Shown here one piece after another: positions 5,425-48,213 of a stretch of 64,000 nt of DNA; within the stretch, counting starts at the first letter, position 1, and the number at the start of each line of letters is the position of its first letter. Origin of the DNA: Armatimonadota bacterium (GTDB taxonomy: Bacteria; Armatimonadota; JADLDR01); contig JADLDR010000131.1 in the NCBI GenBank assembly GCA_020846535.1, forward strand, positions 1 through 64,000, given 5' to 3'. The translations under genes were made by a program, and so were the position numbers. A model generated the notes under the pieces. That model was not told the DNA's origin. It saw only the letters and a list, made by a program, of their open reading frames with translations, and ran no database searches.

Positions 5425-5943
5425 TCAGGAGGTGGGTTCGACCTCCTGCGCCCGGTATTTGTGGATGACTTCGCTGACCCGGTTGGGGTTCATCTGGGCG
5501 TAGACATCGTTGTTGACGATCATGACCGGCGCGAGGCCGCAGGCCCCGACGCAGCGGGCCTCCTGAAGCGTGAAGAGTCCGTCCTCGGTGGTCTGTTTCG
5601 CGCTGATGCCCAATTCCTCCTGCAAGGTTTGCAGGATGGTGGCGGAGCCGCGCACATAGCAGGCCGTGCCTAGGCAGACCGAGATGCAGTATTTGCCTTT
5701 CGGGACCAGGGAGAAGTAGGAGTAGAAGGTGGCGACTCCGTAAATCTCCGCGGTCGGGATCTTCAGGCTCTGGGCGATATGGTTCAGGGCAGGCTGGGGC
5801 AGGTAGCCGAAAAGCTCCTGTGTCTTGTGCAGGACGCCGATCAGCGATCCCTGTGGGTGTTCGTGGTCCCTGGTCTCCTCGATAAAGGAGTCCAGCTCTT
5901 CCCAGCGGGAACGGATATCCTGACAGGATTGGGGTGTGATCAT
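5425..5943 (-). CDS. hndA: NAD(P)-linked [FeFe]-hydrogenase, NuoE-like subunit HndA
   Basis: This 172-residue [2Fe-2S] subunit belongs to the NuoE/HndA (24-kDa complex I subunit) family. The thioredoxin-like fold carries the four ligands Cys90 and Cys95 (CLGTAC) and Cys131 and Cys135 (CVGAC). It passes electrons between the flavoprotein HndC and the hydrogenase HndD. Its ATG overlaps the hndD stop by four bases (ATGA), so the two are translationally coupled. Placing hndA last is different from the A-B-C-D order of the Desulfovibrio operon. The assignment is firm; the exact electron partner of the complex is not. Confidence 0.92.
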   Translation of the reverse strand: MITPQSCQDIRSRWEELDSFIEETRDHEHPQGSLIGVLHKTQELFGYLPQPALNHIAQSLKIPTAEIYGVATFYSYFSLVPKGKYCISVCLGTACYVRGSATILQTLQEELGISAKQTTEDGLFTLQEARCVGACGLAPVMIVNNDVYAQMNPNRVSEVIHKYRAQEVEPTS

Positions 5944-7736
5944 TGGGTCACCTCCGCCTCGACTTCGGTTTCTTCATCCAGACGGAAGCCGATTCCCGGC
6001 GGGATCCGCTGGTAATAGAATGTGTGCAGCAGTTCGTGGGCCAACGGGCTGTTCGGCTCCCCGAGGAAGTCCTTGTAGAGCTGCTGGACTTCGGGATTCT
6101 CGTAGGAGCGGCGCAGCGGCTTGTCCTTGTCTTCCAGATAGAGAGCTTCGATCCGCTTGGCGAGCAGCTTCGGATCGAGCGGCAGGGCGTTGGTTCCGGC
6201 GTAGGGCTGGCCGCCGCCGCCGATGCACCCGCCCGGGCATCCCATGATCTCGATGAAGTGGTACTGTTCCTTGCCCTCTTTGACCCGTTCCAGGAGCTTG
6301 TGGGCGTTCCCCAGGCCGTGGGAGACGGCGAACCGGAGCTTGGTGCCCTCAACGTCGACTTCCATCTCCTTGACGCCCTGAAGTCCACGTACCTCGGGGG
6401 CCTCGATATTGTCCAGGTGCTTGCCGCTCACCAGGAAGTAGGCGCTCCGCATGACCGACTCGGCCAGGCCGCCGGTCACGCCGAAGATCGCGGCGGCCCC
6501 GGTGGAGAGGCCCAGCGGGTGGTCGAAATCCTCGTCCTTAAGGTTCGCGAAATCGATACCGGCGTTCTTGATCATCTTGATCAGCTCGCGGGTGGTGATG
6601 ACGGCATCCACGTATTGATACTCGCCGTTCCCCATCTCGGGACGCTTGGCCTCGAACTTCTTGGCGGTGCAGCACATGGCAGCCACGCTGTAGATGTTCT
6701 TCGGATCGATCCCGAGCTTCTGGGCGTAGAAGGTCTTGATGACCGCGCCCATCATGCTCATAGGGGACTTGGCGGTGGACATATTGCTCAGGAATTCCGG
6801 ATAGAAATGCTCGGCGAACTTCACCCAGCCCGGAGAGCAGGAGGTGATCAGCGGGATCGGGCCTTTGCCCTGGAGCCGCTTCACGAACTCCGCGCCCTCT
6901 TCCATGATGGTCAGGTCGGCGGAGAACTGGGTGTCCAGCACCTTATCGAAACCCAGATGGCGTATGGCAGCCACCATTTTGCTGGTCAGGGCGAGTCCGG
7001 GCGGATAGCCGAAACCTTCCCCGATGGCAGCCCTGACGGACGGGGCCACCTGGATGACCACATGCTTGTTCGGGTCGTTCAGGGCGTCCCAAACTTCTTC
7101 TACGCTGTCCTGCTCCACCAGGGAGGCGGTCGGGCAGACGTTCACGCACTGGCCGCAGGCCACGCAGACCGTTTTTTCGAAGGGCGCGTTGTAGGCGGGC
7201 ATCACCACGGTCTTGAAGCCCCGGTGGGCGTAGCCCAGGGCACCCACGCCCTGCACCTCGGAGCAGAGGCGAACGCAGCGATAGCAGAGGATGCATTTGT
7301 TCGGGTCCCGGATGAGGGAGGGCGAGGAGAGATCGAGCGGGTAGTGCTTGCGCTCGCCCTCGAAGAGCCGCTCCCGGACGCCCGCCTGGTAGGCCAGCCG
7401 CTGAAGCTCGCAGTTGGCGTCCCGCTCGCAGGTCTGGCAGTCCATCGGGTGGTTGTCCAGAATCAGTTCCACGATATCGCGGCGGATGCGCCGGATCTCG
7501 GGGGTGAAAGTCTTCACCTTCATGCCTTCGGCGACCGGCAGGGCGCAGGAGGCGGGCAGGTTTCGCATCCCTTCCACCTCGACCACGCAGACCCGGCACG
7601 CGCCTTCGATGCTCAGCCGGGGATGGTAGCAGAGCCGGGGAATCCGGACTCCCACCTGGTCGGCGGCCTGCATCACGGTCGTTCCCTCCGGCACTTCGAC
7701 CGGAGTTCCATCTATGGTTAAATGAATCGTTTTCAT
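5940..7736 (-). CDS. hndD: [FeFe]-hydrogenase catalytic subunit HndD (M3-type domain set)
   Basis: This 598-residue subunit reduces protons or oxidises H2. It has an N-terminal [2Fe-2S] domain (Cys36, 47, 50, 64), a His-Cys3 [4Fe-4S] site (His96, Cys100, 103, 109), two ferredoxin clusters (Cys148/151/154/158 and Cys191/194/197/201) and the H-cluster domain with the small-subunit-like tail. H-cluster motifs are variant: L1 is TSCSPGW (298-304) instead of TSCCPGW, L2 is MCCTAKK (354-360) instead of MPCTAKK, and L3 is GCPGGCIGGGGQP with Cys500 and Cys504. The ATG at 7736 is preferred over an upstream GTG because GAGGTGA sits 5 nt before it. With HndA, B and C it should form an electron-bifurcating, NAD(P)- and ferredoxin-linked complex. 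Confidence 0.93.
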   Translation of the reverse strand: MKTIHLTIDGTPVEVPEGTTVMQAADQVGVRIPRLCYHPRLSIEGACRVCVVEVEGMRNLPASCALPVAEGMKVKTFTPEIRRIRRDIVELILDNHPMDCQTCERDANCELQRLAYQAGVRERLFEGERKHYPLDLSSPSLIRDPNKCILCYRCVRLCSEVQGVGALGYAHRGFKTVVMPAYNAPFEKTVCVACGQCVNVCPTASLVEQDSVEEVWDALNDPNKHVVIQVAPSVRAAIGEGFGYPPGLALTSKMVAAIRHLGFDKVLDTQFSADLTIMEEGAEFVKRLQGKGPIPLITSCSPGWVKFAEHFYPEFLSNMSTAKSPMSMMGAVIKTFYAQKLGIDPKNIYSVAAMCCTAKKFEAKRPEMGNGEYQYVDAVITTRELIKMIKNAGIDFANLKDEDFDHPLGLSTGAAAIFGVTGGLAESVMRSAYFLVSGKHLDNIEAPEVRGLQGVKEMEVDVEGTKLRFAVSHGLGNAHKLLERVKEGKEQYHFIEIMGCPGGCIGGGGQPYAGTNALPLDPKLLAKRIEALYLEDKDKPLRRSYENPEVQQLYKDFLGEPNSPLAHELLHTFYYQRIPPGIGFRLDEETEVEAEVTQ

Positions 7737-7746
7737 CAATGTCACC

Positions 7747-9537
7747 TCACGAAACGGCGATAGCGTTCAGCTTGCACCGGCGGAAACATTCGCCGCACTT
7801 GATGCATTTGTCCTGGTCGATCACATGCACCTGGCGGGGCGCTCCTGCGATGGCGTCCACCGGGCAGTTCTTCTTGCAAAGCATGCAGCCGCGGCACTTG
7901 TCTTCCAGAACCAGGTAGCTGACCAGGGCGGAGCAGCCGTGCGCCGGACACTTGTACTCCATCACATGCGCCTCATATTCATGCCGGAAGTTTTTGACGG
8001 TGCTGAGGACCGGGTTCGGGGCCGTCTGGCCGAGGCCGCAGAGGGAGGCCCGCTTGATGGTGTTCGCCAGCCGGTCCAGCTTATCGACATCGTCCGGCTT
8101 GCCCTTGCCCTCGGTGATGCGGGTCAGGATTTCCAGCATCCGCTTGGTGCCTTCCCGGCAGGGCGGGCACTTGCCGCACGATTCGTCCTGGGTGAACTCC
8201 AGGAAGAACTTGGCGATATCCACCATGCAGGTGTCCTCGTCCATGACGATCATCCCGCCCGATCCCACGATGGAACCGGCAGCCGCCAGGGATTCATAGT
8301 CCACCGACAGATCGAGGCAGTTTTCCGGCAGGCAGCCGCCGGAAGGGCCGCCCGTCTGGGCTGCCTTGAACGCCTTGCCACCCTTGATGCCTCCCCCGAT
8401 GCCGAAGATGATGTCCCCCAGCCTGGTTCCCATCGGAATCTCGACGAGGCCGGTGTGCGCGACCTTGCCCGCCAGGGCGAAGACCTTGGTGCCCTTGCTC
8501 TTCTCGGTGCCGATGCTAGCAAACCACTCCGCGCCGACCAGCAAGATGGCCGGGACGGAGGCCCATGTCTCCACATTATTGATCAAGGTGGGCTTGCCCC
8601 ACAGACCTTTGGACGCCGGGAAGGGCGGCCTGGGCCGGGGCATCCCCCGCTTGCCTTCGATAGATTGAATAAGGGCCGTTTCCTCGCCGCAGACGAAAGC
8701 GCCCGCGCCGTACCGCAGCTCAATATCGAAGGAGAAATCCGTTCCCAGGATATTTTCCCCCAGGAGGTTCTTTTCCCGCGCCTGGGCAATCGCCGTCTTC
8801 AGGCGTTGGATCGCCATCGGGTATTCGGCGCGGATGTAGATAAAGCCCTGGTCGCTGCCGATGGTGTAACCGGCAATCGCCATGGCCTCCAGGATGCTGT
8901 GCGGATCGCCTTCCAGGGCGCTCCTGTCCATGAAGGCTCCGGGGTCGCCCTCGTCCGCGTTGCAGATGACGTATTTTTTATCGCCCGGGGCGTCCTTGGT
9001 GAACTGCCACTTCATGCCGGTGGGGAAGCCCGCCCCGCCGCGCCCGCGCAGGCCCGATGTCTTTAGGGCATCTACCACGTCCTGAGGGGTCATGCCGGCC
9101 AGGACTTTCGCCAGAGCCTCATAGCCCCGGACGGCGATATAATCGTTGATGTCTTCAGGATCGATGATGCCGCAGTTCCGCAGGGCGATCCGCATCTGCT
9201 TCCCGAAAATCTCGACCCCGCCGTAAAGCCTGATCTTGCTGGAATCGAGCGGTGCGGAGGATTGCAGCCGGGCGACGGCCTGGCCGTTTTCAAGGTGCTG
9301 TTCGATGATTTCGGGAACGTCCGTCGCCGACAGGCCGGAATAGAGGACGGCCTCCGGGTATACCAGCATGTGCGGGCCTTCGCCGCACCTGCCGAAGCAT
9401 CCGGCCTCCATGACCTGCACTCTGTCCTTCAGTCCGCGCCCCTCCATCTCGCTCAGAAGGGTCGCCTCGATCTCCTTGGCTCCGCGGGCGAGACAAGCAG
9501 GACAGACGCAAATGAGAACTTGTCGCTGTTCGCTCAT
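7747..9537 (-). CDS. hndC: NAD(P)-linked [FeFe]-hydrogenase flavoprotein HndC (NuoF-like)
   Basis: This 596-residue subunit is the NAD(P)H-oxidising or NAD(P)+-reducing entry module. It begins with a thioredoxin-like [2Fe-2S] domain (CVCPAC, then CFGRC), followed by the NuoF core with the FMN/NADH loops GLRGRGGAGFPTG and GAGAFVCGEETALI, an SLBB region, the [4Fe-4S] site ESCGKCPPCREG, and a C-terminal pair of ferredoxin clusters (CRGCMLCKKNC and CIKCGECFRRC). This long form is typical of bifurcating hydrogenases (HndC/HydB). The start has AGGAGA 7 nt upstream. Only a few bases separate it from hndB and hndD, so it is in the same operon. Confidence 0.93.
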   Translation of the reverse strand: MSEQRQVLICVCPACLARGAKEIEATLLSEMEGRGLKDRVQVMEAGCFGRCGEGPHMLVYPEAVLYSGLSATDVPEIIEQHLENGQAVARLQSSAPLDSSKIRLYGGVEIFGKQMRIALRNCGIIDPEDINDYIAVRGYEALAKVLAGMTPQDVVDALKTSGLRGRGGAGFPTGMKWQFTKDAPGDKKYVICNADEGDPGAFMDRSALEGDPHSILEAMAIAGYTIGSDQGFIYIRAEYPMAIQRLKTAIAQAREKNLLGENILGTDFSFDIELRYGAGAFVCGEETALIQSIEGKRGMPRPRPPFPASKGLWGKPTLINNVETWASVPAILLVGAEWFASIGTEKSKGTKVFALAGKVAHTGLVEIPMGTRLGDIIFGIGGGIKGGKAFKAAQTGGPSGGCLPENCLDLSVDYESLAAAGSIVGSGGMIVMDEDTCMVDIAKFFLEFTQDESCGKCPPCREGTKRMLEILTRITEGKGKPDDVDKLDRLANTIKRASLCGLGQTAPNPVLSTVKNFRHEYEAHVMEYKCPAHGCSALVSYLVLEDKCRGCMLCKKNCPVDAIAGAPRQVHVIDQDKCIKCGECFRRCKLNAIAVS

Positions 9538-9546
9538 TCTGATCTC

Positions 9547-9903
9547 CTAAATAAGTACCCAGTCCAGAAGAATCTCGTTCTTCTCCAGGTGACGCTCCAC
9601 GATGCGCTTTGCCACTTCCGGAGTGACCCGGCAGTACATCACCGGAGCCTCGCCGTCGCGCACGATCTGAACCATCGGCTCCATGTCGCAGCGGCCCACG
9701 CAACCTGTTCGCAGAACGCGCACCTCTTTCAGCCCGCGCTCGGCCACCATCTCCGCAAGGGCGGCGTAAGTGTCCCCGGCCCCTGCCGCCACGCCGCAGG
9801 TCGCCATGCCGACCACCAGATAGGTGGTGACTCCGGCCTCGGCCTCCTTGCGCTCCAGGCTGGCCTTTTCCTTCATTTCATTCAAAATCGTCAATGCACT
9901 CAT
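9547..9903 (-). CDS. hndB: Hydrogenase [2Fe-2S] ferredoxin subunit HndB
   Basis: This 118-residue thioredoxin-fold ferredoxin has MATCGVAAGA near residue 36 and TGCVGRC near residue 70, the pattern of HndB subunits of NADP-reducing hydrogenases. It probably supplies an extra electron-transfer or regulatory cluster to the hydrogenase complex. GAGGG precedes the ATG at 9903. It is the second gene of the operon, between the response regulator (27-bp gap) and hndC (9-bp gap). Confidence 0.88.
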   Translation of the reverse strand: MSALTILNEMKEKASLERKEAEAGVTTYLVVGMATCGVAAGAGDTYAALAEMVAERGLKEVRVLRTGCVGRCDMEPMVQIVRDGEAPVMYCRVTPEVAKRIVERHLEKNEILLDWVLI

Positions 9904-9930
9904 TGAAACCCTCGCTTTGTGAAAAAGTTT

Positions 9931-10347
9931 TTAGTGCGCCTCGACCTGGCTGGAAGCGGCCAGCCGGCTCACCTTCTCCAAAAACTCCTGCGGCAAGACG
10001 GGCTTGCTGATATAATCGTTGACCTGAAGCCACTCCTGCCGCTCCTCCGGGTCGCGCCCGAACTCGAAACCGGTCTCCTCCGTCACGCCGGTGACCATCA
10101 GGATCGGCGTTCCGGCCAGATGATGGTCGGCCCGGATCTGCCTTGCCACCGCAAAACCGGAGTCCCACTGCTCCATCATCACATCCAGAACCACCACATC
10201 CGGATGAAACGCCTTGGCGGTGGGCAGGGCTTCCTTCGAGCTGTGCGCCTCCCCGACTTCGTACCCGCTGCCTTCCAGAATGGCTCGATGAACTTCCGTA
10301 AAATCGGGATCGTCATCGATCAGCAGCACCTTCTTAGCTGTAGTCAT
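9931..10347 (-). CDS. Single-domain response regulator heading the hnd operon
   Basis: This 138-residue protein is a stand-alone receiver domain: acidic pocket Asp11-Asp13 (LIDDDPDF), phospho-acceptor Asp55 (VVLDVMM), the Thr in VTGVT and Lys in YISKPV. There is no DNA-binding or output domain. The start at 10347 is chosen because GAGGAG lies 8 nt upstream. It is the first gene of the hydrogenase operon, and may take phosphate from the hybrid kinase at 3637 or from the iron-sulfur kinase at 43125. Those partners are inference from proximity and theme. Confidence 0.88.
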   Translation of the reverse strand: MTTAKKVLLIDDDPDFTEVHRAILEGSGYEVGEAHSSKEALPTAKAFHPDVVVLDVMMEQWDSGFAVARQIRADHHLAGTPILMVTGVTEETGFEFGRDPEERQEWLQVNDYISKPVLPQEFLEKVSRLAASSQVEAH

Positions 10348-10377
10348 CGCGATCACTCCTCGATTGGAAATATTTAT

Positions 10378-10426
10378 TGTGATTTGTTTCACATTTATTG
10401 TAACACATTTCCATTAGCTCCGTCAA
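10378..10426 (-). promoter_or_regulatory. Promoter and Rex/CRP-like operator of the hnd operon
   Basis: The minus strand shows -35 TTGACG (10421-10426), an 18-nt spacer and -10 TACAAT (10397-10402). Three nt further downstream lies the palindrome TGTGA-N6-TCACA (10378-10393), over the expected transcription start. That placement suits a repressor; the sequence fits the Rex (NADH-sensing) consensus and also the CRP/FNR consensus. The hydG promoter has the same arrangement. Confidence 0.75.
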
Positions 10427-10592
10427 CTTTTTATTCCACAAAGTTAAGCAAAGCTAATGTTCCCTTCCCGTTCGCTTTGAGGCGGATCATCCCCTTTCAT
10501 GTAATGAAAAAACGGCCTTTTTATTATCCGATATTTGCGGGAAACAGGCAAACACGGAGAGAAAAGACGTAGGGTGGCTGCGCTCAATGGCG

Positions 10593-11650
10593 CTACCGCC
10601 CTCTCCACAACCTTCCCCGTTTTTCTTCTACCGCGCTCGCCCTGTGAATCCTGCTCTCGCCTTCTCGCTGAATCACCGTGCCGAAGACGCTTGCCAGCAC
10701 CTTGCGCGTGTTCTCCGGCACTGGACACCCCACCCGGCATTCCATCCGCCGATACCCTTTTGCCGGATCGGGTCGGCGTCGTTCCCCACCCGCACCCCAA
10801 ACCGCTCGATCTCCGCATCCGAGGCATTCCGGATCTCCACCCGGTCGAAATCGAAGAGGGTGTGGTGGGCCAGGCAGGAGACGGCCAGGCTGTCCCCGCA
10901 GGTACGGCAGCCGATGTTGTAGCAGATCGGGAACTGGTCGGGCAGGCGCAGGGTATTGAGGCGGTAGCGGGTGAGGCAGTGGGGGCAGAGGAGATGAGGC
11001 AACCGGCGGGCGAGGAGCCTCCTGGTTTCCCGAACGATAGCCTGTATGGTGCGTTTGATGCGCTTGTTGCTCTCACTTTTCGCATCGGGCCATTCGCGAA
11101 TCTGTACTTTATCCTTCATCGCTTGAATCGCCGAACCGCCCCTGTCGATGAGCGCATAATGCGCGGCTACCAGTTCCAGGCAGTATTCGCTGTTCAAAGA
11201 GGCGATGCACTGGCCGTCCGTCGCGGGCAGGGCTATCAAAGCCCCGACCCGGCTGAGCATACTGTCGAACGCTTCCGCCAGAGGACCATTGAGGTTGATG
11301 GCCCGGCGTTCATCGGAGGCTTGCTTGATAGCGCGGAGGATTTCCAGGGACGCAGGCGGAGAGGCAATAAGCCCAAGCCCATATGATATCGGGATAAGTG
11401 ATACTAAAACTAGTATTGATAAAACATAACAATGAAGGACGAATCCGAATCAAGTCGTTGGAACAAGCAATTCATCAAGAAGTTGCCTATCTGAATCAAG
11501 CCCTAGGGAGGCGAAGAAGTACTCAGCTTTTTGATCTCCTCATGAATCGCATAATCCCCCTTCAGGTTCTTCCCGCGCAGCAGCAATTGAAGAAAGTGCC
11601 GGAAAACACTGTTCTTGAAGCGCCATTGCTCGCGCCGGAGAATTTTGCGT
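10593..11650 (-). pseudogene. Decayed paralogue of the cysteine-rich membrane protein at 41717-42871
   Basis: Segments in all three minus frames match the intact gene at 41717-42871 in order: ILRREQWRFKNSVFRHF (about 11646-11596), a membrane-helix stretch with WAWAYCLS (near 11370), a long central segment ending RLLARRLPHLLCPHCLTRYR...CRTCGDS...FDFDRVEIRNASDAEIERF (11350-10780), and GCPVPENTRKVLASVFG in another frame (about 10730-10680). A one-base deletion in the A/G run at 10755-10761 causes the last shift, and others lie upstream together with stop codons. No function is known for the family; the CPHC/CRTC pair suggests a zinc ribbon. The remains sit directly upstream of the hydrogenase promoter. 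Confidence 0.75.
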
Positions 11651-39054: not shown

Positions 39055-39182
39055 CCAACCGTCCCTCCCCCAGCCCCCGCCGAAGTCTGGCGGGGGAGCG
39101 GCCTTGGTGTGCTTTAATAAATGTACTAAGAGAACGCACCCTCTCAGCCCCCCGAAGCCGGGGAGGTTGGGGGGCTTCCCAA
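39055..39182. repeat. Family A repeat, copy 3 (inverted relative to copy 2)
   Basis: Reads GAGCGGCCTTGG, TGTGCTTTAATAAATGTACT, AAGAGAACGCACCCTCTCAG, the reverse complement of copy 2, with about 90% identity over roughly 120 bp. Arms CCCCCGCCGAAGTC and GGCGGGGG form a hairpin. Confidence 0.8.
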
Positions 39183-41716: not shown

Positions 41717-42871
41717 CTACAACCGTCGATTCAGCCATATCTGCCCTTCTCCATCCGTTCCTTTCCTGAAGCTTCGCATCTCTCCTGCTTCACACCGAAC
41801 CCGACCGAAGATACTGTCCAGGATGCGTCGGGTGTTCTGCGTGATCGGGCATTCCACAGTGCAGGGCATTTCCCGGTAACGTTCGCGGCGAAAGGAATCC
41901 ATATCGTTGCCTGCCTGCACGGCAAAGCGTTCGATCTGGGCATCAGAGGCGTTCCGGATAAGAATCCGGTCGAAATCGAAGAGATCGCCGCGGGCAAGCC
42001 AGTTGACGAGAAGGCTCTTTCCATCCCGAGCCAGATCCGGCCCGGCGGCGGCATCCAGGAGGGCGACCGCGTCAGGGCATTCCAGGAAGTCCTTGCTGTC
42101 CTGGCAGGTTCGGCAGCCCCAGTAAGCGGCCCGGAAGAGGCCGCCCAGCCGCGCTTTGAAGCGCCGGTAACGGGTCAGGCAATGGGGGCAGAGCAGCGAA
42201 GAGGCTTTTCTCGAAAGCCTTCGGGAAGTCTCCTGACCGATGCGCTTGAGGGTCCGTTTGATCCACAGTCGCACCTGGGCATCGTTTTGATCCCATTGGA
42301 AATTCTCCTCGGCTTCCAGCAGGGGTGCGACCGCTTGACCGCCCCTTAGAGTGAGGGCATAATGGGCTGCCGTCTGATCGAGCGTATCCGGGGAGCTGAA
42401 GCTGTCGATCAACAAAATCGGGGACTGCTCTTTCTGCATGGCGGCTATATCGGCGAGAAGGGCATCGAGCATGGCAGCGACGGTATCGATTTTCCGGGCA
42501 GCGGAGGCTTCCTGAAGGGCCTGGATCGCTTCTGAGACGAGAGGCGGGCGTTGCCACCAGAAGCAGAGCCAGCGGTTGGGAAGAGGCAGGCTTAATAAAT
42601 TGAGCCATGCCCAGTAATTCCAAAAAGCCTGGAAATCGGATTTTCTTACGATGAATATGATGACAATAACAAAAAAGGAAAATATATAAGCAATCGTTTT
42701 GGCGGCACATCTCATATTTACCAGGCTATCAACATAATCCTCTACCGAATGAGCATCCTTTTGTCTGCCACGCCGGACAGCCAGAAATAAACGGTGGGCT
42801 AATGCGCCGTCCTTACAATTCCGCCATTCTCGCCAGAGGATGCTGCGCCAGTTATGGGAGTGTTGGGCCAT
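41717..42871 (-). CDS. Uncharacterised membrane protein with CPHC/CRTC zinc-ribbon-like motif
   Basis: This protein of about 384 residues has one or two membrane helices (IAYIFSFFVIVIIFIV, then WNYWAWLNLLSLPLP), a coiled or helical region, the motif SSLLCPHCLTRYR...YWGCRTCQDS (two CxxC pairs, likely zinc), and a conserved tail LFDFDRILIRNASDAQIERFAVQAGNDMDSFRRERYREMPC...CPITQNTRRILDSIF. I do not recognise the family. A decayed paralogue lies at 10593-11650. The start is uncertain (ATG at 42871 or 42913), because upstream sequence is repeat DNA. It neighbours the hydrogenase maturation genes, whereas the paralogue neighbours the hydrogenase operon. Confidence 0.65.
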   Translation of the reverse strand: MAQHSHNWRSILWREWRNCKDGALAHRLFLAVRRGRQKDAHSVEDYVDSLVNMRCAAKTIAYIFSFFVIVIIFIVRKSDFQAFWNYWAWLNLLSLPLPNRWLCFWWQRPPLVSEAIQALQEASAARKIDTVAAMLDALLADIAAMQKEQSPILLIDSFSSPDTLDQTAAHYALTLRGGQAVAPLLEAEENFQWDQNDAQVRLWIKRTLKRIGQETSRRLSRKASSLLCPHCLTRYRRFKARLGGLFRAAYWGCRTCQDSKDFLECPDAVALLDAAAGPDLARDGKSLLVNWLARGDLFDFDRILIRNASDAQIERFAVQAGNDMDSFRRERYREMPCTVECPITQNTRRILDSIFGRVRCEAGEMRSFRKGTDGEGQIWLNRRL

Positions 42872-42914
42872 GGGTGGTTGTAGGTAATGAGGAGGCGTCA
42901 ATGTATCGGGCATC

Positions 42915-43045
42915 CGCAACCGCCCCCTCCAGCCCCTCGCCGGACTTCGGCGGGGGGAGCGGGCTTGGGGCCTTTGCGAGAGTGCTAAGAGCAGGCACGA
43001 TCTCAGCCCCCTTAACAAGGGGGCTGGGGGTGTTTTCCCCCATAT
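42915..43045. repeat. Family A repeat, copy 4
   Basis: Contains CTCGCCGGACTTCGGCGGGG and CCCCCTTAACAAGGGGGCTG hairpins with the GAGCGGGCTTGG phrase in the same orientation as copy 3. It occupies much of the 253-bp gap upstream of the membrane protein gene and may supply part of its leader. Confidence 0.7.
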
Positions 43046-43124: not shown

Positions 43125-45122
43125 CTATCGGGGAGACTGCCTTTTGGGGAGGGAGAGGGTGAAGGTGGTGCCTTCGCCCGCTTTGCTGGCGACCTCGATG
43201 CCGCCGCGGTGCATTTTAATGATGCCGTAGGCGACGGCAAGACCCAGGCCGGTGCCTTTGCCGATGTCTTTGGTGGTGAAGAAAGGGGTGAAAAGCTTGG
43301 AGATGTTTTCCTCCGGGATGCCTTTGCCGGTGTCGGAGACGACTATCTCCACTCGCTCGGCGTCGGAGGAGAGGCGGGTGATGACGGTGAAGGTTCCGCT
43401 GTCGGGCATGGCTTCCCCGGCGTTGGTGAAGAGATTCAGAAGAACCTGCTTGATCTGCCTGGGATCGACCGGGATGGGCGGAAGGTCGGCGGCCAGGTCG
43501 GTATGAACCTGGATGTGGTCATAGACGGGGAGCTTGGTCGCCATCGCTAAAGAATCCCGGATGAGATCGTTCATATCGGTCGGCTCCAGGGAGAGCTTGC
43601 TTTTGCGGGCGAAATCGAGCAGCCCGGCCACGATCTCCCGGCACCGGGCGGCCTCCTCGACCACCATTTTCAGATCCTCCCGCTTTTCGTCTTCCGCAGG
43701 AAGGTCGCGGTAGACCAGATTGGAATAGATCATGATGGTTCCGAGCGGGTTGTTGATCTCGTGGGCGATGCCTGCGGCCAGTTGGCCCATCGAGGCCAAC
43801 TTGGCGGACTGGATGAGCTGCTCCTCCGTGTCCTTGAGGGTTTGGTTGACCTGTTTCAGCCGCTCGATCATATAGGGAAGGCACATGGTCAGTTCGGCCC
43901 GCCCGTGAAAGACGGCGATGGCTTTCTCCTGACACGATTCGTACCCGCAGGCTCCGCAGTTGAGCTCATCGGCCCGGCTGAGCTTGTTGATCTTCCGTAG
44001 AATGGAGCGCAGCTCGTCCTCGGTCGGGGTGCGGAGGGGCTGGTTTTCGTCGGTAAAGGTGCGGGAAAGATCGATGGCAGCGCAGGCGTCCAGTTCGCGC
44101 TCCAGTTCGGCAGGGCTGGTGGCGGCGCAGGCTTCGCGGGCGTAGTGGGCTACGATCTCGCGGCGGGAGAAGACGTGGAGGTCATTGGACATCATCGGCC
44201 CGTCGATGCAGCCGTTGCAGATTAGGACATCGAGGAAGCGGGGCCGGATGATATCCTGGATCAGCTCTTCCAGGAGATCCATCGAGCGGTCGGCTCCTTC
44301 GGTTACCACAATATCGCTTTCCAGCACATCGCCCTGGAGCATAGCCGTCCTCAGCAGCCCGCCCGAAACCGGGAAGATGCGCCCCACCCGCGGCACCGGG
44401 GGGCTAGGATCGGATTCCTCCAGGGCCGAAAGATCGATCTCCTGACGGTAGAATATCCCTTCCAGTTCGATATAGGTCAGCACGGAATCGATGGCCCCGG
44501 TGAGGGAAGGGCGGCGGATCTCCGCCTTTTTCGCCAGGCAGGGGCCGATGAAAACGACCTTCGCATCGGGCCGGTAACGCTGTTTGAGGGCTCGCCCCAT
44601 GGCGATCATGGGCGAAACGATGGGGGCGAGGTGGGGGATGAGCTGAGGGCGGTGGCGCTCCACATAGGCGACCAGGGCGGGGCAGGGCGTGGTCAGGATC
44701 GTTTTGGAGCCGTTCTGCCGGAGGAGCCGGGCATAGGCGCGGGCCACCATCTCCGCCCCGAAGGACACCTCATATACCCCGTCGAAACCGAGGCGCTTCA
44801 GCCCTGCAATCACCTGCCCGGGCCGTACATCGTGAAAGGCTGCCGGGAAGGAGGGGGCCAGGCAGGCCACCACCGGCTCCTTCTCGCGCAGCATTTGAAG
44901 GACTTCGGGAACAGCGGATTCGACCTCTTTGGCGTCCTGGGAGCAGACGCGAACGCACCTGCCGCATGCGATGCAGCGGTCGTCCATCACCTTCGCCCGG
45001 CCTTCCAAAACCTGTATGGCTTTGGCCGGGCAGTGCCGCACGCACGCATAGCACTGCTGGCACCGCTCTTTGATCGTACGCACCACGCCTGCCGGTTTGG
45101 CAGAAGATGTCAGGTTCGCCAT
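43125..45122 (-). CDS. Iron-sulfur hydrogenase-like sensor histidine kinase
   Basis: This 665-residue protein has two N-terminal ferredoxin clusters (Cys21/24/27/31 in [22 protein letters not shown]), an [FeFe]-hydrogenase large-subunit-like domain (about 85-340) with degenerate motifs [15 protein letters not shown] and CNGCIDGP, a further four-cysteine domain (CGACGYESC...C, near 390-415), and a kinase core with HEINNPLG (phospho-His), a predicted N-box and DTGKGIP / [11 protein letters not shown]. No membrane helix is seen. It likely senses H2 or redox state through its clusters and phosphorylates a response regulator, perhaps that at 9931. GGAGG precedes the ATG at 45122. The absence of a partner gene beside it is notable. 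Confidence 0.88.
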
Positions 45123-45150: not shown

Positions 45151-45449
45151 GGGAGGGCGGAAAAGCACCCCCCATAGGTATCCCGATCAGGGTGACTGTC
45201 CCGCCGGGGCGGGGTGCGGGACTCTGATAGACGGTTACCTAACCCCCCCGCCCCCTTCCCGAAACGGGCAGGGGGCGGAGATGGGGGGGTCAAGTACCGC
45301 ATCCTCTGTCCCCCTCTCCCCGGAGGCGCTCCGGCGCATCCCTTGGGTTTCGGGGAGAGGGGCCAGGGGAGAGCGGTCCCCCCTCCCCCAGGAGCGGAGG
45401 ATCTTCCCCCTTCTCTGGATCGCTATGGGAGGGCGGAAAAGCACCCCCC
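45151..45449. mobile_element. Family B element, copy 2, with 23-bp direct repeats
   Basis: The core is 45174-45426, starting ATAGGTATCCCGATCAGGG (a variant of the copy-1 end) and ending CTCTGGATCGCTAT. A 23-bp sequence beginning GGGAGGGCGG flanks it at 45151-45173 and 45427-45449. Interior palindromes and order match copies 1 and 3. It lies next to family A copy 5. Confidence 0.8.
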
Positions 45450-45560
45450 CCTCTCCCCTGGCTTCGGGGGGCTTAGAGCGTGCGTGCTTTTGATCAGTTG
45501 ATCAAAGTCCCCCAAGGTCACTCCCCCGCCTTACTAAGGCGCGGGGCTGGGGGCGGTTGC
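45450..45560. repeat. Family A repeat, copy 5, overlapping the hydE 3' end
   Basis: GGCTTCGGGGGGCTTAGAGC followed by GTCCCCCAAGGTCACTCCC and hairpin-forming CGCCTTACTAAGGCG is a family A unit. Its distal half is read as the last 19 codons of hydE. Confidence 0.7.
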
Positions 45561-46614
45561 TTATCACCTTTGGGCTGTGCCCCGCATCGGTTCCCACGGT
45601 CCGGCCCAGGGATTGGATGATGGCCTGGATGCAGTCCCGGCAGTCGCCCGGCTCTTCGCCCAGGCAGATTTTGTCCGGGTAGATCTGGTAGTGCTGGCGG
45701 TAGTGGAGGGGCGTGACATTGGGCATGACGACATTGGCCCCGGCCTTGAGCGCCTTCTGCCTGCCGAACGGGTCGAGCGTGCCGGTGGCGGTGGTGGCCG
45801 GGAGCATGGCCCCGGGCATCAGGAGCCGGGCGGTGGCAAGAGTCTTCAGCGTCATGTCCAGATTGCCCCGGGGGTGGCTGGCGAGCGGGGTGTCCGCGTT
45901 CGGGATGAAGGGGCCGATGCCCGCCATTTCCACATCGAGCCGCTTCATCAGCAGGATATCTTCGGCCAGAATCTCAGGCGTCTGGCCCGGAATCCCCACC
46001 ATATTGCCGGAACCCACCTGAAAGCCGAGTTCCCTCAGCCACTCCAGGCAGCGGATGCGGTTTTCGAACTGCATATCGGGATGAAGGGACGCATAGAGCG
46101 CGGGATCGGCGGTCTCGTGCTTCAAAAGGTAGCGGTCCGCGCCCGCCTCTCTATAGTGTCGGTATTCTTCGTGAGATTTTTCACCCATGCAGAGAGTAAT
46201 CACAACATCCATAGCCTTGATTTCCCGGATGATATGGCACATTTTCTCCGGGTCATACCAGATATCCTCCCCGGACTGGAGGACGACCGTTTTGTATCCC
46301 AGCGCGACCGCCTGACGGGCGATCTCGATGATTTCCTCTGGCTCCATCCGGTAACGGTGAAGTTCCGGGTTCGGGGCGCGAAGCCCGCAGTAGACGCACT
46401 GACGGGCGCAGCGGTTGGAAAACTCGATGATGCCGCGCAGATGCACCGCATCGCCATGCACCCGCTTCCTTACGGAATCCGCCGCCTGAAAGAGCTTCAC
46501 CATCTCCGCCCTGTCCTCCAGCCGCAGCAGGACAGCGATTTCATCCTTAAACAGCATGGCTTCGGCGCAGGCTTTTTCAAGGAGATATTCGGTTGTGAGG
46601 TGGGGAATTGGCAT
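45502..46614 (-). CDS. hydE: [FeFe]-hydrogenase maturase HydE
   Basis: This 370-residue radical-SAM enzyme has the cluster motif Cys69-x3-Cys73-x2-Cys76 (CARQCVYCG), MEPEEIIEIA, GGE/GSGNMVGIPGQT and a C-terminal CLGEEPGDCRDC that can bind an extra cluster. HydE acts with HydG and HydF to build the diiron part of the H-cluster. The last about 19 residues (after SPK) are encoded by a family A repeat and look non-native. hydG is the next gene upstream on the same strand (about 155 bp away, across a repeat), so the two may be co-transcribed. Confidence 0.93.
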   Translation of the reverse strand: MPIPHLTTEYLLEKACAEAMLFKDEIAVLLRLEDRAEMVKLFQAADSVRKRVHGDAVHLRGIIEFSNRCARQCVYCGLRAPNPELHRYRMEPEEIIEIARQAVALGYKTVVLQSGEDIWYDPEKMCHIIREIKAMDVVITLCMGEKSHEEYRHYREAGADRYLLKHETADPALYASLHPDMQFENRIRCLEWLRELGFQVGSGNMVGIPGQTPEILAEDILLMKRLDVEMAGIGPFIPNADTPLASHPRGNLDMTLKTLATARLLMPGAMLPATTATGTLDPFGRQKALKAGANVVMPNVTPLHYRQHYQIYPDKICLGEEPGDCRDCIQAIIQSLGRTVGTDAGHSPKVISNRPQPRALVRRGSDLGGL

Positions 46615-46627
46615 GGTCTATTGTCCC

Positions 46628-46765
46628 GAAGGGGAAGAGTGCCCCCCCAACCCCCTCGGGCTTCGGGGGGGCTTAGACTGTGCGGTCTCTTGGTACTCTC
46701 TCAAAGGCCCCCAAGATCGCTCCCCCCGCCGAAGTCCGGCGGGAGGCTGGGGGGCAGTTGCCTCT
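46628..46765. repeat. Family A repeat, copy 6
   Basis: Contains the CTCGGGCTTCGGGGGGGCTT hairpin, TAGACTGTGCGGTCTCTTGG and CGCCGAAGTCCGGCG, closest to copy 1. It fills the gap between hydG and hydE and can form hairpins in the joint transcript. Confidence 0.7.
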
Positions 46766-46769
46766 CTCT

Positions 46770-48170
46770 TTACATATAAATATCCCGCCCGCCCTCTTCC
46801 ATTTCCTGCAAGGATTTCTCCAGGTGGCGGCGGACTTTGGTGTTGAGGACGCGGCTGACGTGTTCGGAGAGAACTTTTTCGCCCAGGGCGCGGGTGGCCG
46901 GGGAGGCGTAATCGAGCAGGTATTCCTTGAAGGTCAGGATGGCGTTGGGAGTACAGAAATCCTGGATGAAGCCGATTTTCGCCAGCCCCATGAAGTCGTG
47001 GCCGGTGCGGCCCTGGCGGTAGCAGGCGGTGCAGAAGCTGGGCATGTGTCCGGCCTGACAAAGTTCATGGATGATCTCGTCGGGCGTGCGGTGGTCGCCC
47101 AGGGTGAACTGTTCCATGATATGCTCTCGGGTGGCGTCCTTGTAGGCCCCGGGGGAGGTTTTGGACCCCGCGCTGATCTGGGAGATACCCAGGCGGAAGA
47201 GTTCGTCGCGGAACTCGGCGCTCTCGCGGGTGGAGAGGATCATGCCAGTATAGGGGACGGCCAGGCGGAAGATGCAGACGATCCGCCGGAAATCGTCATC
47301 GGAAACCATATGGGGCGGGTGTTCCGCGACGGGAGCATTCAAAGCTGGCTCCAGGCGCGGCATCGAGATGGTGTGCGGCCCCACGCCCAGCTTATCTTCC
47401 AGATATTGCGCGTGGGCCACGGTCGCCATCACCTCGAACCGCCAGTCGAAAAGGCCGAAGAGAGGGCCGATGCCCAGATCGTCCACCCCGCCCTCGAACG
47501 CCCGGTCCGGGGCCGTGATGCGCCAGTCGTAATCGGACTTTGGGCCGGAAGGATGCATCCGGGCGTAGGTTTCCCGGTGGTAGGTCTCCTGGAAAATCTG
47601 GAAAGTGCCGATGCCGGCCTCGTGCAGGAGGCGGAAATCGCCCGCCGTCCGAGGGGCGCAGTTCACATTCACCCGCCGGATCTCGCCCATCCCGGTTCGG
47701 GTGGCGTAAACAGTCTCGATAGTTTTCAGCATATACTCGATGCTGTCATCGGCTCCCTCGCCGTAGACCAGCAGGAGCCGCTTGTGGCCCATCCGCTCCA
47801 GCAGGCGCACCTCTTCGGCGATCTCCTCCATGGTCAGGCGCTTGCGGATCAGCTCCTTGTTGGAACTCCGGAAGGCGCAGTAAAGGCAGTCGTTGCAGCA
47901 CTCGTTGGTCACGTAAAGAGGGGCGAACAGCACCATTCGCTGGCCGTAAATGGCCGCCTTGACCTTGATAGCCGCCGCATAGAGGGTCTCACGCACCTCC
48001 GGGGTATCGGTTTTAAGCAGCACGGCCACTTCCGCGGTGGTCAGGCCGCGCAACTCGCGGGCCTTGTCGATGATATCGAGCGCCTTTTCCGCAGGCGACT
48101 GTCCGGCGGCATCAATCTCGCTGAAGAGTCGTCCCTCGTCGATCACATGGCTTCGTTCCAGAGTTTTCAT
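46770..48170 (-). CDS. hydG: [FeFe]-hydrogenase maturase HydG (tyrosine lyase)
   Basis: This radical-SAM enzyme (about 466 residues) splits tyrosine to give the CO and CN ligands of the H-cluster. The SAM cluster motif is Cys92-x3-Cys96-x2-Cys99 (ECCNDCLYCAF, numbering from the upstream ATG). The C-terminal second cluster motif CTACYRQGRTGHDF with a later FIQDFC is diagnostic for HydG versus ThiH. The second of two ATGs (48170) is preferred, 5 nt after GAGG. Its promoter carries the Rex/CRP-like operator also seen at the hydrogenase operon. hydF is missing from the window. Confidence 0.94.
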   Translation of the reverse strand: MKTLERSHVIDEGRLFSEIDAAGQSPAEKALDIIDKARELRGLTTAEVAVLLKTDTPEVRETLYAAAIKVKAAIYGQRMVLFAPLYVTNECCNDCLYCAFRSSNKELIRKRLTMEEIAEEVRLLERMGHKRLLLVYGEGADDSIEYMLKTIETVYATRTGMGEIRRVNVNCAPRTAGDFRLLHEAGIGTFQIFQETYHRETYARMHPSGPKSDYDWRITAPDRAFEGGVDDLGIGPLFGLFDWRFEVMATVAHAQYLEDKLGVGPHTISMPRLEPALNAPVAEHPPHMVSDDDFRRIVCIFRLAVPYTGMILSTRESAEFRDELFRLGISQISAGSKTSPGAYKDATREHIMEQFTLGDHRTPDEIIHELCQAGHMPSFCTACYRQGRTGHDFMGLAKIGFIQDFCTPNAILTFKEYLLDYASPATRALGEKVLSEHVSRVLNTKVRRHLEKSLQEMEEGGRDIYM

Positions 48171-48213
48171 CATAACCTCGCATCCGGCTCCCCGGACGCT
48201 CCATCCCCCCTAT

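Follow-up and report, generated by a model that had tools for sequence, protein, structure and literature searches.

A histidine kinase with a group-C-type [FeFe]-hydrogenase domain in an Armatimonadota bacterium: a candidate redox sensor

The stretch of Armatimonadota DNA analysed here (contig JADLDR010000131.1, 64,000 nucleotides, hereafter the window) encodes a protein in which an iron-sulfur domain of the hydrogenase type is joined to a histidine kinase. The reading that we hold, with slightly better than even confidence, is that a group-C-type [FeFe]-hydrogenase remnant serves this protein as the input module of a soluble two-component kinase, that the signal is a redox signal, and that the output controls the bifurcating hydrogenase encoded by hydCBA. 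Because close relatives occur in bacteria that are unable to build the hydrogenase cofactor, the kinase family probably reads electron pressure and not H2.

Domain organisation of the kinase

The gene runs from an ATG at 45122 to a stop codon at 43125 on the minus strand, and its reading frame is intact (Table 1). The sequence-only reading had placed two ferredoxin clusters, a hydrogenase-like domain, a further four-cysteine domain and a complete kinase core on one polypeptide, and the Pfam matches and the alignment bear this out. The kinase core comprises a HisKA domain with the phosphoacceptor histidine and the N, G1, F and G2 boxes (AHEINNPL with H454, N567, DTGKGI and GTGLGL in the alignment). 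The cysteines of the C-terminal domain (C389, C392, C397 and C414) match exactly the Cx2Cx4Cx16C motif given for groups C and D of the [FeFe]-hydrogenases (PMC8163306). Pfam found no PAS domain in the 665 residues; the same search detects PAS in the relative L005. Full-length orthologues with 41-47% identity occur in several phyla, and the domain arrangement is thus not a product of chance. An artefact or a pseudogene is ruled out by the intact frame and by the conservation of the L3 loop across phyla. A search among viral contigs returned no relatives.

The AlphaFold2 monomer model, built on a 21-sequence alignment, has a mean pLDDT of 85.7, with values in the 60s across the linker helix. In this model, weak as it is across the linker, a single helix (residues 415-473) starts beside C414 and contains H454. 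The closest solved folds are those of [FeFe]-hydrogenases for the front half and of ZraS for the kinase.

Table 1. Features of the kinase gene and of the hydrogenase and maturase genes in the window.
Feature	Positions	Strand	Basis
Hydrogenase-derived sensor histidine kinase, 665 aa	43125..45122 (stop codon included)	-	Open frame; GGAGG 8 nt before ATG; Pfam
Two [4Fe-4S] ferredoxin motifs, residues 17-64	44931..45074	-	Pfam Fer4_10/Fer4
H-domain (Fe_hyd_lg_C), residues 83-309	44196..44876	-	Pfam, 173 bits (cut-off 22.1); genome search
L1 motif TTPCP	44679..44693	-	Alignment: [4Fe-4S]H ligand C147 retained, proton-relay Cys replaced by Pro
L2 motif GPCLAKK	44526..44546	-	Alignment: C195 retained; Gly at the M353 position, a group C feature
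L3 motif C302-N-G-C305 (LICNGC)	44208..44219	-	Alignment: Cx2C, one residue shorter than Cx3C
C-terminal four-cysteine domain Cx2Cx4Cx16C, residues 387-416	43875..43964	-	Pfam FeS PF04060
HisKA dimerisation/phosphoacceptor domain, residues 445-507	43602..43790	-	Pfam, 52 bits; alignment
H454 phosphoacceptor codon	43761-43763	-	Alignment
HATPase_c catalytic domain, residues 553-661	43140..43466	-	Pfam, 92.5 bits
hydE, H-cluster maturase	45502..46614	-	NCBIfam TIGR03956, 393 bits
hydG, H-cluster maturase	46770..48173	-	NCBIfam TIGR03955, 534 bits
Single-domain response regulator, first gene of the hydrogenase operon (likely start codon at 10347, ATG)	9931..10392	-	Pfam Response_reg; best genomic match of L004 receiver
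hydC-like 2Fe-2S subunit of bifurcating hydrogenase (inferred from sequence and position)	9547..9903	-	
hydB (NuoF-like) subunit	7747..9537	-	NCBIfam
hydA, group A catalytic subunit	5940..7745	-	NCBIfam FeFe_hydrog_A6, 847 bits

The H site and its relatives

The H-cluster motifs had been described as partly lost. The motif letters TTPCP, GPCLAKK and CNGC are as stated in that description; however, all four cysteines that hold [4Fe-4S]H are present, and a simple loss of the H-cluster motifs is ruled out for the window kinase. Its H site deviates in that one residue fewer lies between the last two cysteines and that the proton-relay C299 is replaced by proline. AP-S, SP and AKKxE are kept, and the residues of AP-S and AKKxE contact the diiron site in CpI. 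Among the Armatimonadota members the four H-site cysteines are strictly conserved; those of Fer4 and of the C-terminal domain are so across the whole of alignment A2.

The Cx2C form of L3 is present in 33 of 34 distinct kinase-fused homologues and Cx3C in none of them, the remaining sequence (G227) being without the first L3 cysteine. The 34 sequences are the sum of 22, 4 and 8 from three alignments; L047, among the first 22, ends at a contig edge before the kinase and was counted by its position in the tree. The Cx2C kinases belong to Armatimonadota, Dehalococcoidia, Planctomycetota, KSB1, Krumholzibacteriota and Bacteroidota. All 14 PAS- or sigma54-linked relatives (L005-L010, L048, L051, L054, L056, L058 and L064-L066) have Cx3C and none has Cx2C, where the domains were scanned for L005, L054 and L066 and the other sequences were grouped by length and tree. 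Cx2C also occurs in the GGDEF-linked L057 and in five Bacteroidota relatives of about 620 amino acids that have no kinase domain. Chance or a misplaced alignment gap at L3 is ruled out, since the count of residues between the cysteines does not depend on gaps. Across the sequences compared, Cx2C is fixed in the kinase-fused clade, and the H site has changed there as one block.

The window kinase was aligned with sequences of group A, of PAS-type group C and of a group D-like type; the sequence-only reading had put forward an alignment with sensory group C and D proteins. A sensory, group-C-like character of its H-domain is supported. A tree that excludes the L3 columns places the kinase-fused, sigma54-linked and degenerate Bacteroidota proteins in a single clade (92/90). 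Its neighbour is the PAS-type group C clade (99/97), and it is well separated from group A and from the group D-like sequences; branching inside the first clade is not firmly resolved, and the tree does not fix the number of origins of Cx2C or of the kinase fusion. The window kinase shares with group C the two N-terminal [4Fe-4S] motifs followed by an H-domain, the Cx2Cx4Cx16C motif, the replacement of C299, glycine in place of M353, and the placement in the tree. It lacks the canonical Cx3C ligand spacing in L3 and the PAS domain after the C-terminal cluster. Group D has serine or threonine at M353, where the window kinase has glycine.

The sensor core is attached to a range of outputs: a kinase in the window, a kinase with a receiver in other Armatimonadota, a sigma54 activator with a Fis-type HTH (L054 and L066), GGDEF (L057) and PAS (L005). 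The sigma54-Fis HTH fusions (L054:6466-8763 and L066:7965-10280) are from Pelobacter, Deltaproteobacteria, and the GGDEF fusion (L057:7980-9731) is from Actinomycetota; sigma54 and GGDEF outputs lie outside the HydDB group C subtypes C1-C3.

Genome context and candidate partner

The kinase does lie beside hydE and hydG, as had been noted; both genes are upstream of it and run in the same direction. With hydF on contig C5, HydE, HydF and HydG are all encoded in the window's genome (6.1 Mb, 96% complete, 8% contamination). Two H-domain proteins were detected in this genome, the kinase and the group A HydA, whose gene is preceded in order by that of the single-domain receiver, the inferred hydC and hydB. 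HydA itself has TSCSPGW, with serine at a position that is a cluster ligand in CpI, and AMCC in L2. Near hydG, hydE and the kinase, the gaps between genes contain scattered G+C-rich repeats (39067-39174, 42925-42975, 45425-45552 and 46643-46754). An uncharacterised protein family with LLCPHCLTRYR and NASDAxIERF motifs has one member next to the kinase (about 41720-43000) and another next to the receiver (10674-11060). This family was dropped as a link between the two loci: more copies are present on contigs C111 and C114, and the receiver-side copy is frameshifted.

The window kinase carries no fused receiver, and 33 kb separate its gene from that of the regulator at 9931-10392, which had been proposed as its target. 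The receiver that is fused to the orthologous kinase in L004 finds its best match in the window's genome in this regulator (102 bits, 44%; next match 51 bits). On this genomic argument, the regulator is the probable phosphotransfer partner of the window kinase, and the proposal stands to that extent. In Bacteroidota and KSB1 a stand-alone receiver is encoded directly downstream of the kinase. The Bacteroidota layout is hydB, hydA, kinase, receiver and second kinase; in Armatimonadota it is hydB, hydA, a hydG paralogue, the kinase-receiver fusion and a second kinase; and in KSB1 two copies of the kinase are followed by receivers and a second kinase.

Kinases in genomes without maturases

HydG is absent from all nine Dehalococcoidia genomes that have the kinase (G064, G065, G068, G070, G079, G272, G262, G167 and G227). 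In the first five of these, HydE and HydF were also searched for and are absent from each, and the kinase is the sole PF02906 protein; one of the five, G068 (CP070842), is a single-contig chromosome. Retention of the kinase in the HydG-less genomes implies that it has been kept, in at least one lineage, without a known route to the native diiron cofactor; the HydG-less Dehalococcoidia form a single lineage and hence count as a single event. In this group AP-S is replaced by SS (once by DY), and two of the nine have lost a cysteine at the H site (the L2 cysteine in G167, which has APS, and the first L3 cysteine in G227). The motif of the C-terminal cluster has been preserved in these kinases, and so has AHExNNP. 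Judged by these substitutions, the H site of the Dehalococcoidia kinases has begun to decay.

In most other genomes examined, HydG accompanies the kinase. Of 291 Armatimonadota genomes sampled, 14 have a long model match (one of the 14, G519, is without the kinase half), and each of these has HydG. The maturase is likewise present in the kinase-bearing genomes of Planctomycetota, Bacteroidota and Krumholzibacteriota, and in one of two KSB1 genomes. HydG was also found in 13 of the 14 genomes with Cx3C relatives. The Krumholzibacteriota genome G072 retains hydEFG, and the kinase is the only H-domain protein detected there; its gene is flanked in G072 by a formate-dehydrogenase-like gene and by one for NuoF-GltD.

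In Dehalococcoidales (L072) the gene order is a sigma54-type gene, the kinase, an NtrC-type regulator, a receiver protein, NuoE, NuoF and a receiver-2Fe-2S fusion, and two further Dehalococcoidia kinases (L073 and L076) lie near HdrA2-like genes. The location of the kinase among sigma54/NtrC-type genes and bifurcation genes of the NuoE/NuoF/HdrA type suggests that its output matters without any [FeFe]-hydrogenase. The product of the last gene of the L072 order (9756-10778) joins a receiver domain to a 2Fe-2S NuoG-like protein, and phosphorylation might here control electron transfer directly.

What the kinase may sense

The sequence-only reading had offered H2 or redox as the signal. A sensory group-C-like domain on an active-looking kinase fits a sensor, but H2 as the ligand is in doubt given the Cx2C loop and the HydG-less orthologues. 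A redox ("electron pressure") sensor is no less likely than a sensor of H2, and the best explanation, to which we give a little more than half of our credence, is an Fe-S redox-sensing kinase that controls the bifurcating hydrogenase. For the Cx2C kinase clade as a whole, we see an even chance that its members are hydrogenase-derived sensors that no longer need or hold the diiron cofactor, read the redox state of ferredoxin/NADH bifurcation, have spread to bacteria without [FeFe]-hydrogenase or maturases, and control bifurcating oxidoreductases via sigma54 regulators. As to the H site of the window kinase itself, the loop change and the HydG-less orthologues favour a cubane alone; the kept pocket residues and the available maturases favour a modified H-cluster, and this protein may yet bind a cofactor.

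Since the genome encodes HydEFG and the residues of the cofactor pocket are conserved, we also allow, as a tentative and somewhat doubtful alternative, that the window kinase is a genuine H2 sensor, in which HydEFG supply a complete H-cluster of slightly altered shape, H2 reduces it and the kinase responds. The four cluster cysteines, AP-S, SP and AKKxE are all in place, hydE and hydG adjoin the kinase with HydF elsewhere in the genome, HydG occurs in every kinase-bearing Armatimonadota genome, and G072 retains hydEFG with no other H-domain protein detected; moreover, TmHydS and TamHydS, which have altered second-sphere residues, bind the H-cluster and turn over H2 (PMC10055695, PMC8163306). 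However, Cx2C alters the loop of the bridging cysteine and was never seen in the PAS- or sigma54-linked members compared, orthologues persist in HydG-less genomes, and the maturases of the window's genome are required for HydA anyway. It is improbable that the H-domain has no working cluster and is only a docking surface, the signal being contact of the kinase with HydABC or with some other Fe-S protein: the frequent operon linkage with HydBA and the Bacteroidota proteins L061-L063, which have lost H-site cysteines and kept the remaining protein, agree with such a role, but the H-site cysteines are strict in Armatimonadota and the Fer4 and C-terminal cysteines are strict throughout alignment A2. 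Least probable is a catalytic hydrogenase of group B or D with an incidental kinase domain. The best NCBIfam hydrogenase model is indeed FeFe_hydrog_B1, but its 212 bits are far under the cut-off of 450, the proton-relay cysteine is missing, glycine stands at M353, and the tree sets the protein apart from group A and group D-like sequences; motifs, HMM score and tree thus rule this assignment out.

Under the redox reading, the N-terminal pair of clusters would take up electrons from ferredoxin or another low-potential carrier and pass them to a site in the H-domain that is cubane-only or modified in some other way; H2 acting at a modified H site could be one electron source in the window's lineage. 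The change would be relayed through the C-terminal four-cysteine cluster, whose C414 is predicted to start the helix that runs into the phosphoacceptor helix with H454, and would reset the balance of kinase and phosphatase activity. Phosphate would then pass to the single-domain receiver (9931-10392) and tune the hydCBA bifurcating hydrogenase to the cell's state of reduction. H2 does not reduce the C-terminal cluster of TamHydS but does alter the secondary structure of that protein (PMC13104023). This suggests that the transmitting step may be conformational and not a change in cluster charge, and by analogy the role of the C-terminal cluster in signalling may be structural.

Comparison with known systems

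The kinase core is closest, by sequence and by fold, to ZraS/AtoS-type histidine kinases; however, sensing by ZraS is membrane-linked and periplasmic, whereas the window kinase has a soluble Fe-S input. The regulatory [NiFe]-hydrogenase and HoxJ provide a case in which a hydrogenase-derived sensor feeds a histidine kinase, but the metal site is unrelated and the subunits are separate, whereas the window kinase is one polypeptide. That system belongs to the background of PMC5707799.

Within the [FeFe]-hydrogenases, HydDB lists group C1 as "Histidine kinase-linked (putative)" (PMC5037454), and the window kinase can be likened to it by description, as a sensory-type H-domain linked to a histidine kinase. 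The C1 proteins of Hydrogenedentota have the HATPase in the same polypeptide, as the window kinase does, and some of their genes adjoin group A3 hydrogenase genes; their H-cluster signatures are unrecognisable and their H2 sensing has been called unclear (PMC11406978). The HydDB reference nearest to them is without a HATPase domain. TmHydS of Thermotoga maritima (group C, M2f) resembles the window kinase in its two N-terminal clusters, in the replacement of C299 and M353, and in the C-terminal Cx2Cx4Cx16C (PMC8163306, PMC10055695), but has a PAS domain and conserved H-cluster cysteines. In the window protein, by contrast, L3 is Cx2C, PAS is missing and a kinase is built in. TamHydS of Thermoanaerobacter mathranii (group D, M2e) shares the C-terminal four-cysteine cluster and the lack of PAS (PMC8163306); in contrast, group D has serine or threonine at M353 and no kinase domain, and forms a separate branch of the tree, as represented by L011 and L012, which were assigned to group D by motif.

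Kinase-linked group C hydrogenases, and HATPase-bearing C1 proteins without recognisable H-cluster motifs, are already known, and the window kinase is a variant of these. In the open-access papers searched we found no description of a hydrogenase-derived redox kinase or of maturase-free members, of the fixed Cx2C signature and its tie to the kinase fusion, of the maturase-free lineage with its sigma54/bifurcation neighbourhood, or of the match between the receiver and the hydCBA regulator. These proteins bear on the question of what "sensory" [FeFe]-hydrogenases detect and by what route they pass the signal on. Detailed studies have, to our knowledge, covered a single enzyme of group C and a single one of group D, neither with a readout of its own. 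The built-in kinase and the predicted partner make the question directly testable by autophosphorylation, and the HydG-less orthologues are a control supplied by nature in which the diiron cofactor is missing. Should the redox reading be right, these would be dedicated histidine kinases for the low-potential electron pool, for which we know of few sensors.

Variant members of the family

Some relatives depart further from the hydrogenase or the kinase pattern. In three Bacteroidota proteins (L061:7932-9857, L062:3405-5270 and L063:7983-9833) most of the H-site cysteines are gone, in L062 all of them; the ferredoxin and C-terminal four-cysteine domains are retained despite this loss. In Armatimonadota relatives a divergent second HydG paralogue (245-334 bits) is encoded directly before the kinase (L004:3-1421, L034:6400-7872, L035:4221-5654, L045:6410-7915 and L046:5181-6725). 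It keeps the radical-SAM CxxxCxxC motif, and some copies have lost the C-terminal auxiliary-cluster cysteines; this paralogue is absent from the window's genome. In the Armatimonadota kinase-receiver fusions L034, L035, L045, L046, L081, L089 and L095 the phosphoacceptor histidine is replaced by A, S, E or Q and the ATPase domain stays. This pattern suggests that in these fusions phosphotransfer occurs in trans or that kinase action has been lost.
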